Virus record (IMG/VR): IMGVR_UViG_3300025669_000084
Coordinates: 1-40,944 of that record
Direction: 5' to 3' (one strand)
DNA length: 40,944 nucleotides
Source of the DNA: a virus
Every line of letters begins with the position of its first letter. Position 1 is the stretch's first letter. Positions 907 through 40,944 of the stretch are shown in pieces. The position numbers were made by a program, and so were the translations under genes. The notes under the pieces were generated by a model. That model was not told where the DNA came from. It saw only the letters and a list, made by a program, of their open reading frames with translations, and did no database searches.

Positions 907-1499
907 TCACTTCGGATTTTTCTCTTTAATATACTCTTGAATTATTGCAGAAGTCTTCAACATATCCAAAACCTCTTCAAGTCCTAAATTATCAGCATCC
1001 ACTTTATTCAAACCATACTCACTCCATAATATCTTATAATTGATATTACGTTTGAACACTACGGGAAGTCTACTATTTTCCCCACACAATAGTATAGGGA
1101 TTATTCTTTTGGGTCCAGTACCTCCTTTTGTATTTTGAAACAATTATTATAATGCTCGAATATCTTATTACCCTCACTAGCATCTAAGAAAAACACGTTT
1201 TCAAATGTTGGTGGAAACTGATTCTTATCATAATCCCCAGCCTGTAACGCATAAGTGATAATCCATAATTGTCCAAGAATTGCACTAGGTTTTTTCTTTT
1301 CTTCAAAACGCATAATCCTTTTACCAACAGCATCAATTATTGGTTCTAGTACTGATTTATCAGCTGCTAAGTAACTCATACCATAACTTAGTTTTCCCAC
1401 AGCAACATGAACAGTCTTACCTCTCCATTGAATTGCTATCTTTCTTCCTACTAGTTTTTCATTTGTAACAGATTCTTTTATTCCAGCCATATTTTTCAT
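907..1499 (-). CDS. Tail assembly chaperone GT, made by -1 ribosomal frameshift
   Basis: The 132-residue upstream frame (1499-1101) and the frame ending at 907 overlap, with the second one base back (-1). The heptamer C CCA AAA at 1113-1107 lies two codons before the upstream stop and is a canonical X XXY YYZ slippery site. An AGGAGGT element at 1126-1120 sits six bases before it and could stimulate slippage, as in bacterial dnaX. The fusion would have 131 upstream residues plus 66 from the second frame, about 197 in all. The second frame has only a TTG as start, so independent translation is less likely. The place between tail tube and tape measure is where siphoviruses encode the frameshifted gpG/gpGT pair. 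The fold itself was not recognised. Confidence 0.82.
1101..1499 (-). CDS. Tail assembly chaperone G (unshifted product)
   Basis: This 132-residue protein starts at ATG 1499, which overlaps the stop of the preceding gene. It ends at TAA 1101-1103, right after the slippery heptamer. In siphoviruses the unshifted chaperone coats the tape measure during tail assembly and the rarer shifted form recruits tube subunits; this role is inferred from gene order and the frameshift architecture. The N-terminal half is basic and mixed alpha/beta; no catalytic motif is seen. Confidence 0.75.
   Translation of the reverse strand: MKNMAGIKESVTNEKLVGRKIAIQWRGKTVHVAVGKLSYGMSYLAADKSVLEPIIDAVGKRIMRFEEKKKPSAILGQLWIITYALQAGDYDKNQFPPTFENVFFLDASEGNKIFEHYNNCFKIQKEVLDPKE
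1107..1126 (-). promoter_or_regulatory. Programmed -1 frameshift signal: slippery CCCAAAA with upstream Shine-Dalgarno
   Basis: On the minus strand the element reads AGGAGGT, six bases, then CCCAAAA. In the upstream frame the codons are GAC CCA AAA GAA TAA. After slippage they become CCC AAA AGA ATA ATC, which opens the frame ending at 907. An obvious downstream pseudoknot was not identified by eye. Confidence 0.85.
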
Positions 1500-7328: not shown

Positions 7329-7614
7329 ATTCTTTTGGTTTCCACCTAAGAATAAGTAATACCCCAACATCTGCATCATCATTACCAGTTATTGTCATAA
7401 CGTCTGGTTTAAAAGCTTCTTTTATAAGTTCTAAATCTTGTAAATCCAAACTATAATTAGATTTAAAATTTACTTCAACATCTCCATTAACACTAGAATT
7501 AATATCTGCATCAATCCTGAATACTGAATCCTTATTATTAACAAATAATTTTACTAATTTATTATCTATTCTTCCAAGAGTATCTTTCCATGTTTCAACA
7601 CTATCTTTTACCAT
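7327..7614 (-). CDS. Small protein of the capsid region, function unknown
   Basis: A 95-residue, acidic protein with alternating strands (FRIDADINSS, VEVNFKSNYS) and a C-terminal LLILRWKPKE. It starts at ATG 7614, about 27 bp from the TATA centre of the upstream repeat, so it is probably leaderless. It is the partner of 6945-7265 in a pair of genes with duplicated control regions; the two proteins are not obviously similar in sequence. Confidence 0.65.
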   Translation of the reverse strand: MVKDSVETWKDTLGRIDNKLVKLFVNNKDSVFRIDADINSSVNGDVEVNFKSNYSLDLQDLELIKEAFKPDVMTITGNDDADVGVLLILRWKPKE

Positions 7615-8378: not shown

Positions 8379-8651
8379 CTAGACTCCCCAAACAACAATA
8401 TTATGTATTCCAGTTGAAATACTACCTAATGTTATTATTCCTGTGCTTGGAACCCACGTACTTGTTACGTCTGCTCCTACATCATCTTGAGCTAAACTGT
8501 TCAAGATTGTTCTCATAGTACTAGCAACGCTATCACTATACAAATCTATTGTATCGCTTGTAGCTGCTGTTGCTGGTGTTACTATTATCAATTTCTTAAT
8601 GTCTCCATTAACCGATTTGTAAAACGTACAATCGTCTGTAATATCTGTCAT
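8379..8651 (-). CDS. Small capsid decoration-like protein, paralogue 2
   Basis: A 90-residue protein that is clearly homologous to 8664-8936 along its full length. Shared segments include YKSVNGD, LI-VTPATA, SDTIDL-SDS and STGIITLG followed by TGIHN. It lies directly after the paralogue and the major capsid gene, so a role as a minor or decoration capsid protein is likely. The duplicates may occupy different symmetry sites or form a heteromer. Confidence 0.75.
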   Translation of the reverse strand: MTDITDDCTFYKSVNGDIKKLIIVTPATAATSDTIDLYSDSVASTMRTILNSLAQDDVGADVTSTWVPSTGIITLGSISTGIHNIVVWGV

Positions 8652-8663
8652 ATTTTTTTCACC

Positions 8664-8936
8664 TTATATTCCTTCTACTAAAACATTATGTATCCCTGTT
8701 ACCAGGGTTCCTAATGTTATAATCCCAGTATCTGGGTCCCAAGTTGCATCCTTGTCTGCACCTGCATCATCTTGAACTAAAGTGTTCAAGATTGTTCTAA
8801 TATTGCTACTTGCACTATCACTATTCAAATCTATTGTATCATTAGACTCTGCTGTTGCTGGAGTAACTAAGATTAAAGTCTTAGTATCCCCATTAACAGA
8901 TTTGTATACTGTACAAGTACTCAAAAGCTCAGTCAT
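8664..8936 (-). CDS. Small capsid decoration-like protein, paralogue 1
   Basis: A 90-residue paralogue of 8379-8651, with roughly two thirds of residues identical by eye. It sits 13 bases downstream of the major capsid gene, starting at ATG 8936. The fold appears all-beta. Small proteins encoded next to the major capsid gene often stabilise the expanded shell. Confidence 0.75.
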   Translation of the reverse strand: MTELLSTCTVYKSVNGDTKTLILVTPATAESNDTIDLNSDSASSNIRTILNTLVQDDAGADKDATWDPDTGIITLGTLVTGIHNVLVEGI

Positions 8937-22795: not shown

Positions 22796-23338
22796 CTATT
22801 TTTCTAATAAACTCAACCAATAAAAATCCTTACTTAAAAACTTAGTAGTAGTAAAATCGTTACGGTCTAGAATCCATTTAAGACTCATATTATTAATCTT
22901 ATGCTCATCTAAATATTCATATTTCTTATTTGTATAATAACTAGTACTACCATAAAGGTAAGGCTTGTTGTAATGTATTATCAAAACCTTATCTTTTGCT
23001 TTCTTAACAATCTCATCAATTATCTCAGGATTCATATAATTAATACTGAATAATGAAATAATATTGTCAAAACTCTTACAAGTACTAATATAAGAATAAG
23101 CATCAGAAAAAAGGAACTCCTTATCATAACAAGAATTACAATGCTTAATCATATCATCGTTAATATCAATTCCTGTATACTTGTCAAACCTAGCTAAGTT
23201 ATATGCTAAGCCAGTACCACAACCCAAGTCTAATACACTACCTTTAAGATTTAGGAGTATGCTTCTTATCTCTTCATTCTCCTTCTTTGATTGTAGTGTT
23301 TGATACTGTGAATCGTATACCTCAGAGTAGTATTTCAT
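22796..23338 (-). CDS. Class I SAM-dependent methyltransferase
   Basis: A 180-residue protein with motif I VLDLGCGTGLAYN (residues 35-47), a GIDINDD acidic loop, and an FDNIISLFSINYM segment. This is a compact Rossmann methyltransferase without a target-recognition domain. A small-molecule, protein or modified-base substrate is possible. It starts at ATG 23338, overlapping the stop of the ParB-type gene, so it is part of the module running from 25969. Confidence 0.8.
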   Translation of the reverse strand: MKYYSEVYDSQYQTLQSKKENEEIRSILLNLKGSVLDLGCGTGLAYNLARFDKYTGIDINDDMIKHCNSCYDKEFLFSDAYSYISTCKSFDNIISLFSINYMNPEIIDEIVKKAKDKVLIIHYNKPYLYGSTSYYTNKKYEYLDEHKINNMSLKWILDRNDFTTTKFLSKDFYWLSLLEK

Positions 23339-23862
23339 AATAATAACTCAAATTCTTTTAAACAATGTGGACAAGTAACAGTAGTAACATCCTTTACTAC
23401 ATCATCAAATTTATGATTCATTTTCTCCTCTATCTTATGTATTACTTCTGCTTGTTTTACGTCAGACTTTAATAATTCAGTAGTTATTTGTTCCACCTCT
23501 TTTGATTCAAAACCTATAACATCATCCAAATCCATTAATTCACGTTCTAACATATCCTCATCCCATGAAGATAATTCTGAAAGTTTGTTATCAACTAACC
23601 TATATTCCTTAACTTGTAAATCTGTTAAATCCTTCTTTATTATACAAGGTATATCTGTGTATCCTAGTTTTTTTAATGCCTTAAAACGTTGGTGTCCTAC
23701 TATTATAGTATTATCTCCATCAAGTATTATTGCACTATTAAAACCATATTTCAATATTGATTCTTTTATTTGTTCAACATTGTTATCTGTTCTAGGATTT
23801 CTCCAATATGGTTTAATCAAATTCACATTTATTAAAACTGGTTTAGTATTATCTTTTTCCAT
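23335..23862 (-). CDS. ParB/Srx-fold protein with a C-terminal CPHC motif
   Basis: About 175 residues from ATG 23862. A TTG at 23871 is an alternative start. The N-terminal domain has the ParB signature: PYWRNPRTD, then ESILKYGFNSAI, then IIVGHQRFKALKKLGYTDIP, ending RLVDNKLSELSSWDEDML. This fold binds nucleotides or cuts DNA and is common in phage proteins next to DNA-modification genes. The C-terminus carries TCPHCLKEFELLL, a possible half zinc ribbon. It is the second ParB-fold protein in this operon. Confidence 0.82.
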   Translation of the reverse strand: MEKDNTKPVLINVNLIKPYWRNPRTDNNVEQIKESILKYGFNSAIILDGDNTIIVGHQRFKALKKLGYTDIPCIIKKDLTDLQVKEYRLVDNKLSELSSWDEDMLERELMDLDDVIGFESKEVEQITTELLKSDVKQAEVIHKIEEKMNHKFDDVVKDVTTVTCPHCLKEFELLL

Positions 23863-23867
23863 GATTA

Positions 23868-24188
23868 TCAAGTCATATTTTTATTTAATATTTCTAAATT
23901 TTCATTATCTGCTCTATTTAATATTATTGTTTCTACTAATGGACATCCCATAGTCCAATAACGTCTTCCATCAATATCATAACACATATATTTTTTATTC
24001 CAATGACTGTACTCATAACCATATTTTCTTATGAACATCACGAATTTCTCAAACATTTCTTTGTCATCATTTGATAATTTCATTTTTACAACGTATTCGT
24101 GTGGAGCCTTCTTTGCATAAGTCTTTGCAAATATCCATTTTTGTTTGTTAATCCAATCCTCAAATGCTTGATGTATAACCTGTGTCAT
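23868..24188 (-). CDS. Phage conserved protein with WTMGCPLVETI motif
   Basis: A 106-residue protein with an APHEYVVKM segment and a highly aromatic stretch ending RRYWTMGCPLVETIILNRAD. I recall this motif combination in phage proteins encoded beside PAPS-reductase-like and ParB genes, but no named function. It starts at ATG 24188, overlapping the previous stop region. The Gly-Cys-Pro may be functional (metal or thiol chemistry). Confidence 0.65.
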   Translation of the reverse strand: MTQVIHQAFEDWINKQKWIFAKTYAKKAPHEYVVKMKLSNDDKEMFEKFVMFIRKYGYEYSHWNKKYMCYDIDGRRYWTMGCPLVETIILNRADNENLEILNKNMT

Positions 24189-24846
24189 TGTTTTCTTCTC
24201 TCCATTTTTTTCTTAATAATACTTGTTTTTTAGTTTCCCAAGCCTTCTTGTATTCTGTATTCTCGAATAGTTTACTGAATCCTGTTATGTGTTTTAGTTT
24301 TATTAATTCTTCAGCTTCCATACCTAATTCATCACATATACGACTATCAGTCCATCCATTATCTAACATATTAAATACTATATTACTCATACCATTAATG
24401 CTGTGTTTCCCTCTTGCTCTATTATGTCTAATCGTACTTGCCATCTTGTCATTGATGTCTTTATCTATGAATGTTATTGGTAAATAGTTAAAGTTCTTTT
24501 TAGCTATGTCTTCATAGTATCTAGGTATACTAAATCTGTGAAATCCATCAACTATTTCATACTTTTTTAATTCTTTATTGTATATTGTTACTATTGGCAT
24601 TGTGTACCCGTCTTCTGCCACGCTTTTATGTAATAATTTCATTTCTCTATTTGCTACACTATTAGGATTGTAATCATTAGCGTATAATTGTGATATCTTA
24701 ACCCATATTGGACAATCTACTGGGTTATGTTTTAATGGAGATAATTCAAATAATATTTTTTTGATATTATTCAAGAATGTTATTTTATCCTCTAGTTTTT
24801 CAATATTGTTATACTTATTTGATATTTCTTCTTTTAATTTTTCCAT
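24160..24846 (-). CDS. ParB-fold protein, IbrB-like
   Basis: About 228 residues from ATG 24846 (MEKLKEE), chosen because GGTGAT lies four bases upstream at 24856-24851; the in-frame start at 24867 lies inside the previous gene. The core is ParB-like: WVKISQLYANDYNPN, then KLLHKSVAEDGYTMPIV, then EIVDGFHRFSIPR. IbrB-type ParB proteins pair with IbrA-type PP-loop enzymes, as here. The C-terminal quarter is helical and Lys-rich. Confidence 0.78.
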   Translation of the reverse strand: MEKLKEEISNKYNNIEKLEDKITFLNNIKKILFELSPLKHNPVDCPIWVKISQLYANDYNPNSVANREMKLLHKSVAEDGYTMPIVTIYNKELKKYEIVDGFHRFSIPRYYEDIAKKNFNYLPITFIDKDINDKMASTIRHNRARGKHSINGMSNIVFNMLDNGWTDSRICDELGMEAEELIKLKHITGFSKLFENTEYKKAWETKKQVLLRKKWREENNDTGYTSSI

Positions 24847-25969
24847 TTTTATCACCATATTTATCATGATACCTTTTTATTGTTTCTTTTGTTTGGTTTC
24901 TTACTATTATATTATGTACTCTAGTTCCCGTATAATCATTTAGTATTATTGCATTGCATTCTTCCCTAACTATACTATCAAAGTTTTTGAATTCTTCAAA
25001 TTCCTTATCCGTACGGGCAAAATCTTTTAAGAATTTTCTCCTATGGTCTACTGGTATTAGTTTTTCTAAAAGATAATCCCTATACTCTATCCAGGATTCA
25101 AACATGAATGGTAATTTCTTTAATTTAAATCCATTTTGTATTTGTATTGCACTATGTACTCCATTTAACCTTTTTAATAATTTCTTGTGTGTTTCTGGTT
25201 CTACTTCATGCAAGTAGTATAATGATTCAACTGCTGTTTCATGATGTAGGTTTGATACTCTCATATGGTTTATTGGTACTCCATGTCTGTATTGGTAGTC
25301 ATAAACCTTGTTATAATCTATGTTATTATCATTAATATATTTCCAAACGTCTGTATAACTCCAATCATATATTGGGTAGAATAAGTATTCTAATTTGTTA
25401 CTCCATGTTGTATTTTTGTATCCTAGATTTGCTGTTAATGATAAGCTTCTTGCAGGGCTTTCTTCAACTCTTACTCCTCCAATCCTTGCAACTTTTTTAT
25501 CTTTGAATTCTACATCCATAAATGCTTTGAATAATTTTTTGAATCTATCAGTACCATACTTGTTAATTTTTATGCTTATTGGGTCTTTCTTTCTCATCCA
25601 TTCTTTTCCTTCTTCCCAACAAAATAACCAATCGTGTTCGTAACTTGTAGCATTAAATAATTTTATTGGTATTTGGAGCCAGTAAGGTTTTACATCTTTT
25701 CTATACATTATATTTTTTATTACTCTTATAGTATTGCTCCATTCTGCTTCTTGGTCTATAAATAAAACATTTAATGGTAGTCTATTCTTTTCTTTTGCAA
25801 TAGTCATTGTTAGTTCAAATATTACACTACTATCTTTTCCACCACTAAAGCATAATACTACATCTTCAAATTCATCAAATATGTATCTTATTCTGTTAAG
25901 TGTTTCTTCAAGTTTAGGTTTCTTTAATGGGTATCTTATCTGTTTTTTTATCATTCTTTTTTCTACCAT
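24815..25969 (-). CDS. PAPS-reductase-like PP-loop enzyme, IbrA-like
   Basis: A 384-residue member of the PAPS reductase/ATP-pyrophosphatase superfamily. The PP-loop SGGKDSS is at residues 42-48. LFIDQEAEW follows at about 88-97, and GGVRVEESPARS is around 175-187, matching IbrA/DUF3440-type proteins. The last 11 codons overlap the start of the IbrB-like gene. Known IbrA/IbrB pairs are associated with gene regulation in bacteria, and related DndC enzymes put sulfur into DNA, so a role in DNA or RNA modification is plausible but not shown. It starts at ATG 25969 behind GTGAT. Confidence 0.85.
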   Translation of the reverse strand: MVEKRMIKKQIRYPLKKPKLEETLNRIRYIFDEFEDVVLCFSGGKDSSVIFELTMTIAKEKNRLPLNVLFIDQEAEWSNTIRVIKNIMYRKDVKPYWLQIPIKLFNATSYEHDWLFCWEEGKEWMRKKDPISIKINKYGTDRFKKLFKAFMDVEFKDKKVARIGGVRVEESPARSLSLTANLGYKNTTWSNKLEYLFYPIYDWSYTDVWKYINDNNIDYNKVYDYQYRHGVPINHMRVSNLHHETAVESLYYLHEVEPETHKKLLKRLNGVHSAIQIQNGFKLKKLPFMFESWIEYRDYLLEKLIPVDHRRKFLKDFARTDKEFEEFKNFDSIVREECNAIILNDYTGTRVHNIIVRNQTKETIKRYHDKYGDKNGKIKRRNIK

Positions 25970-40659: not shown

Positions 40660-40944
40660 TTACAAAAAAAGACTTGGTATAAGTTCCTCAATAGTAGCAA
40701 GCCTCCAAATATTAGTACCATCAGGTTGTATATCCTCAGTAACAACAGTATTAGCACTACCATCACTAAAACCTTGATTATTACCATCCGTATTAGATTG
40801 TGATTGTGGACCCCCCTGTTGATTATTAAGAATACGCTGTAAAATACCCCCCTGTTGATTATTAAGAACACACTGTAAAATCCTAGCTTTACTAATAACA
40901 CTATCCATCTCAGTACCCATAGCTTTTATTCCATCAACACCAGT
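40660..40944 (-). CDS. Tail tape measure protein, C-terminal part (starts at the left end of the window)
   Basis: This is the C-terminal 94 residues of the tape measure that begins at 899, in the same frame across the junction. It contains a 12-residue unit, ILQ-x2-LNNQQGG, in tandem, followed by a Gln/Ser/Asn/Gly-rich linker and a short closing segment ending PSLFL. In the left-end copy the second unit ends NNQKYG, so this tail end varies between the two copies. The downstream gene starts at 40649, 10 bases after the stop. Confidence 0.78.
   Translation of the reverse strand, partial: TGVDGIKAMGTEMDSVISKARILQCVLNNQQGGILQRILNNQQGGPQSQSNTDGNNQGFSDGSANTVVTEDIQPDGTNIWRLATIEELIPSLFL
40775..40944. 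repeat. Right copy of the 170-bp terminal overlap
   Basis: This is the second copy of the sequence at 1-170. Joining the copies gives a circle of about 40,774 bp and restores an uninterrupted tape-measure gene. Headful packaging with a permuted genome would give this result. A true fixed terminal repeat is less likely, because it would lie inside a coding gene. Confidence 0.93.
40811..40882 (-). repeat. Two tandem 36-bp repeats in the tape-measure gene
   Basis: A 36-bp unit beginning CCCCCCTGTTGATTATTAAG occurs twice in tandem with a few differences and encodes the 12-residue repeat of the tape measure. The left-end copy of this region has one unit partly diverged. In-frame tandem repeats like this can expand or shrink by slippage, which would change tail-protein length in 12-residue steps. 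Confidence 0.75.

Follow-up and report, generated by a model that had tools for sequence, protein, structure and literature searches.

The closest described counterparts of the site reported here are found in haloarchaeal siphoviruses, in lambda, and in bacterial dnaX and IS-element cassettes. For halovirus tail genes, -1 frameshifting has already been predicted in reviews (PMC8211752, PMC5009743). One archaeal -1 frameshift, that of the Saccharolobus fucosidase gene, has been demonstrated, the virus cases being predictions, according to a 2021 review (PMC8211752). In a literature search conducted mostly outside subscription journals and without the two original halovirus papers, no archaeal virus site was found to be described with a stimulator of the hairpin or Shine-Dalgarno (SD) type.

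The stretch of DNA analysed here (the window) is one IMG/VR virus record of 40,944 bases. It contains a cassette that very probably serves programmed -1 ribosomal frameshifting in a tail assembly chaperone gene; the virus is tailed and probably infects an archaeon. What was observed comprises the elements of the sequence and how rare they are, the order of the genes, and relatives that share the overlap.

The haloarchaeal siphoviruses HVTV-1, HCTV-1, HCTV-2 and HCTV-5 resemble the window in the position relative to the tube and tape measure genes, in the -1 direction and in the presence of a slippery site at the end of G. Where these viruses have A AAA AAC or G GAA AAC as heptamer, the window has C CCA AAA; it differs further in its strong 3' hairpin, set off by a 6-nt spacer, and in a T of 66 aa instead of about 160 aa, and G and T are not detectably similar. 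The features of lambda gpG/gpGT that recur here are the gene order and, as predicted for the window, a -1 shift that occurs at a low level where G ends and yields a short G and a longer GT (PMC5009743), whereas the heptamer is different, T is shorter and no sequence similarity was found. With the dnaX and IS-element cassettes, the window has in common a three-part layout of SD motif on the 5' side, heptamer, and hairpin about 6 nt to the 3' side. It differs from these bacterial cassettes in its heptamer (C CCA AAA, theirs being A AAA AAG), in an SD spacing of 6 nt rather than 9-14 nt and in the unrelated gene, and the site matched none of the catalogued frameshift RNA elements of Rfam up to an E-value of 5.

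Layout of the site and its gene neighbourhood

The site lies at the end of a 132-aa ORF (1101-1499, on the minus strand, as are all features of the site described below), which is located between the genes for tail tube and tape measure. Read on the minus strand, this ORF ends with ...CAA AAG GAG GTA CTG GAC CCA AAA GAA TAA, in which the slippery heptamer C CCA AAA (1107-1113) is in frame and is separated from the 0-frame stop UAA (1101-1103) by GAA as the single sense codon. An internal SD-like AGGAGGT (1120-1126) precedes the heptamer, with the six nucleotides ACTGGA in between. In the -1 frame, no stop occurs from 1143 until the one at 907, which gives a 65-codon extension beyond the G stop, compared with just 9 codons of extension in the +1 frame. 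The sequence-only reading had claimed the heptamer near the G stop, a second frame open in -1, and AGGAGGT six bases upstream of the heptamer, and all three were found as claimed. In-frame heptamers of the form XXXYYYZ number 55 in the 62 called genes of the window, and only C CCA AAA at 1107-1113 combines an upstream AGGAGG with a stop at a distance of one codon. The presence of a slippery sequence in the overlap is shared with the tail assembly chaperone G/GT pairs.

The gene order is tube, G, T and tape measure, which places the overlapping frames at the position of G/GT. The major tail (tube) protein (1689-2672) was identified by its match to PF18906 (Phage_tube_2, E 2e-16), and a small 76-aa ORF of unknown function (1496-1726), recognised as an ORF only, overlaps both the tube gene and G. 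The 132-aa 0-frame product is designated a G-like tail assembly chaperone from its place between tube and tape measure and from relatives that are alike in position, size and -1 overlap. The T-like extension (907-1107), an open -1 frame, begins at AGA and has 66 aa before it reaches the TGA stop at 907; in five relatives, T has 63-79 aa. The predicted GT fusion has 197 aa. The tape measure protein, assigned from its ORF and position, has about 338 aa in total: its N-terminal part (1-899) continues through the end repeat at 40660-40944, where a 5'-open ORF encoding the C-terminal part repeats and continues the end of the ORF at 3-899. The structural genes, namely terminase, portal, MuF-like, SU10-type major capsid (PF17236), tube (PF18906), G and tape measure, are all on the minus strand. 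A tandem pair of 90-aa paralogues (8379-8936) adjoins the capsid gene.

Neither G nor T matched Pfam or PHROG, and neither has recognisable similarity to the named chaperone families. Known G/GT pairs share low sequence similarity (PMC5009743), and membership of a chaperone sequence family is therefore not a defining requirement. AlphaFold models of G were of low confidence (pLDDT 43 and 42).

The hairpin 3' of the heptamer

A hairpin, UCCCUAUAC-UAUU-GUGUGGGGA, with 9 bp and a 4-nt loop, begins directly after the stop codon (1100-1079); it had been overlooked by the sequence-only reading. This candidate 3' stimulatory hairpin is separated from the heptamer by a 6-nt spacer, inside which the UAA stop lies. 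The spacer typical of 3' stimulators is 5-9 nt (PMC5009743), and a spacer of 6 nt falls within this range, as is the case for the stem-loop of a dnaX-type cassette. Nowhere else in the 40.9-kb genome does a 34-nt fold of the coding strand reach -13.5 kcal/mol, and the hairpin ranks first of 40,910 segments of that length. When the codons of the -1 (T) frame were swapped for synonyms at the codon usage of the genome itself, only one of 5000 recodings reached -13.5 kcal/mol (mean -3.4, sd 1.7). We consider this predicted hairpin the strongest statistical evidence at the site and the strongest stimulator candidate. A second, AT-rich 9-bp hairpin lies downstream (1025-1050), and a 90-nt fold that includes both hairpins has a z-score of -3.5; the role of the second hairpin is uncertain.

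Relatives of the window

Relatives were gathered by stepwise profiles starting from the capsid protein, and they form two groups. The -1 arrangement of G and T was found in all 13 relatives with an inspectable chaperone gene, and the slippery sequences differ among them. Eight of the 13 are Saparoviridae-type viruses, including HHTV-2 and HCTV-2. In these, the ORF after the tube gene ends with GAG GAA AAC TGA (six) or GCA AAA AAC TGA (two), and the -1 frame spans 158-164 aa where it is complete; in L013, it reaches the contig end after 75 aa. The HCTV-2 gene is annotated in GenBank as a joined frameshift product. Genes 47 and 48 of HHTV-2 (L005:19930-20873, KC292024) are annotated as separate hypothetical proteins. 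Their sequence has GAG GAA AAC TGA with the -1 frame open, as do five other records, which suggests a G/GT frameshift missing from the annotation.

The other group is nearer, though still distant. Five of its records extended to the tail module (L031/L060, L033, L058, L059 and L029); in these, G has 120-211 aa, the -1 extension has 63-79 aa and the slippery site is A-rich, consisting of heptamers or A-runs. The tape measure gene directly follows T in L060, L033, L058 and L059, and comes two ORFs later in L029. At the G/T junctions in L058 (1634-2211) and L059 (1395-1951), the A-runs have lengths of 10-11, and RNA polymerase slippage is possible there besides ribosomal frameshifting. Compared with a profile of the T of relatives, the window T ranked 16th of 2001 among shuffled decoys, weakly above them and too weak a result to claim homology. 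Scans of IMG/VR with the tube, G and terminase proteins singly yielded no tail-module relatives, L003 and L004 sharing only a distant terminase. The nearest capsid relatives (L008, L024, L025 and L027) stop short of the tail module. Overlaps in L028, L035, L041 and L045 were found on inspection not to be tail chaperone genes.

The same split in the same order in 13 relatives, together with the coincidence of the split with the heptamer and the strongest hairpin of the genome, makes it highly unlikely that a single gene was divided by an error in assembly or sequencing, or by a genuine one-base indel; such a division would be favoured by the coverage of the site by one metagenome contig, the near-identical contig L007 not extending to it. 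A change of frame by transcriptional rather than ribosomal slippage is extremely unlikely in the window. The A-runs of L058 and L059 would permit it, but the window has just CCCAAAA, too short a run, and a hairpin with a 6-nt spacer suits the ribosome. A programmed ribosomal -1 frameshift in a tail chaperone gene, as the sequence-only reading had proposed, is well supported by the position, the heptamer, the open -1 frame, the 3' hairpin and the like arrangement in the 13 relatives. That reading had named, as an outcome that would refute it, homologous viruses with neither heptamer nor overlap. The relatives showed otherwise: all 13 keep the overlap, and the slippery sequence varies.

The 1079-1100 hairpin and the strong SD were not kept in the relatives found, none of which is close at the site, and the two are features of the window and not of the viral group. 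Moderately significant downstream structures were observed in L029 and three Saparoviridae-type records. A stem downstream of the site in L011, L013 and L018 was rejected, being missing from the other Saparoviridae and showing no covariation by eye.

The internal Shine-Dalgarno-like motif

The duplex of AGGAGGT with the 3' end of 16S rRNA has a predicted energy of -11.4 kcal/mol, which ties for the strongest in the genome, three other places reaching -11.3 kcal/mol. The virus uses SD pairing for initiation, as indicated by a dip in mean dG at -18 to -12 before start codons. Whether the motif at 1120-1126 acts on the frameshift is an evenly balanced question: AGGAGGT is a putative stimulator, and it is about as probable that the same frameshift occurs with AGGAGGT incidental, a consequence of coding for Lys-Glu-Val, and with only the heptamer and hairpin mattering. 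An incidental motif would accord with the recoding of the same nine codons, in which 217 of 3000 synonymous versions (7%) equal the anti-SD match of AGGAGGT, and with the 13 occurrences of AGGAGG on the coding strand, which are all within genes and never right before a called start. The spacing points the same way. In bacteria, SD spacings of 3 nt for +1 and 9-14 nt for -1 frameshifting have been reported (PMC5009743), and the 6 nt found here lies between the two, outside the dnaX-type range. Most relatives with A-runs have no SD. A functional motif is favoured by the strength of the match, which adjoins the strongest hairpin of the genome, by the use of SD pairing in initiation, and by the Saparoviridae-type sites, most of which have GGAGG or GAGG about 10 nt upstream, with AGG invariant in eight of eight. 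Because 7% of recodings match and the 6-nt spacing falls outside 9-14 nt, the evidence for the SD is weaker than that for the hairpin.

SD sequences close to gene ends often serve translational coupling (PMC5009743), and AGGAGGT could accordingly be a ribosome-binding site for coupling or for separate initiation of T, with no frameshift at all. This is very improbable, given that no ATG, GTG or TTG lies within reach in the -1 frame (the first TTG comes about 30 nt after the SD, leaving T without a start served by it), that the tape measure start is about 200 nt away, and that the heptamer and the hairpin would be left unexplained.

Host and genome

Of 61 start codons, 17 have a TATA-like hexamer at -33 to -18, against a background of 4% and 1 of 61 in an upstream control; the positions of the hexamers peak at -29. 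A TATA box about 29 nt before the start codon is the look of leaderless archaeal transcripts. Boxes of this kind stand about 29 nt before many minus-strand starts, for example those at 7614, 10953, 14215, 26936 and 28204. This arrangement suggests that leaderless archaeal promoters head many short operons and that operon-internal genes use SD sequences. In the relatives, no clear archaeal promoter signature was seen.

Among 50,697 phage records, the capsid protein matched only Haloarcula tailed viruses, and the tail tube protein could be aligned to tail tubes of Haloarcula tailed viruses; the closest known capsid and tail tube are those of the haloarchaeal Saparoviridae. No archaeal provirus was found in 84,980 genomes by a capsid alignment scan. 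The single hit of the capsid scan, L009 (Bacteroidota), with 26% identity over 116 residues, was set aside. The sequence-only reading had called the virus archaeal, and this receives indirect support: judged from the TATA-like boxes at about -29 and the Saparoviridae-like capsid and tube, the virus probably infects an archaeon.

The two ends of the record share an overlap of about 170 nt that contains a few mismatches, and the genome is therefore probably circularly permuted or circular. The end repeats (1-170 and 40775-40944) are near-identical, with a few central bases differing, and lie in the tape measure gene beside a repeated NNQQGGILQR motif. At 23335-25969, two ParB-like proteins are encoded beside a PAPS reductase/DUF3440 (IbrA-like) protein. 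Relatives of PAPS reductase occur in many bacterial phages.

Proposed mechanism and significance

We infer that slippage occurs and how often, what each stimulator does, and how the products function. The majority of ribosomes would end at UAA (1101-1103) and release the 132-aa G. With CCA in the P site and AAA in the A site, the 9-bp hairpin would stand 6 nt downstream at the mRNA entrance and resist translocation; AGGAGGT, lying upstream, may base-pair with the 3' end of 16S rRNA. A minority of ribosomes would then re-pair on CCC and AAA, enter the -1 frame and translate 66 further codons, giving the 197-aa GT. If the pair works as in lambda (PMC5009743), the short tape measure protein would be coated by G and GT, and T would recruit tail tube subunits. 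The frameshift rate would set the G:GT ratio required for tail assembly.

What does the site add to the known cases? The type of frameshift is already known, and the window carries an unusually complete archaeal-virus signal, combining a slippery sequence, a hairpin and a ribosome-binding motif. Across the relatives, the frameshift appears to be kept while the slippery sequence and the stimulators change. This pattern suggests that selection acts on the G:GT ratio and not on one particular signal. It is conceivable, though on the doubtful side, that the elongating archaeal ribosome uses anti-SD pairing together with a 3' hairpin for -1 frameshifting at a 6-nt SD spacing unreported for bacterial -1 sites, and that the tail genes of archaeal viruses evolved the three-part dnaX-like layout independently. 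Because the heptamer, the strong hairpin at the classical spacer and the strong anti-SD match all lie within about 50 nt, the site offers a compact, mutable test of stimulators acting on the archaeal ribosome.
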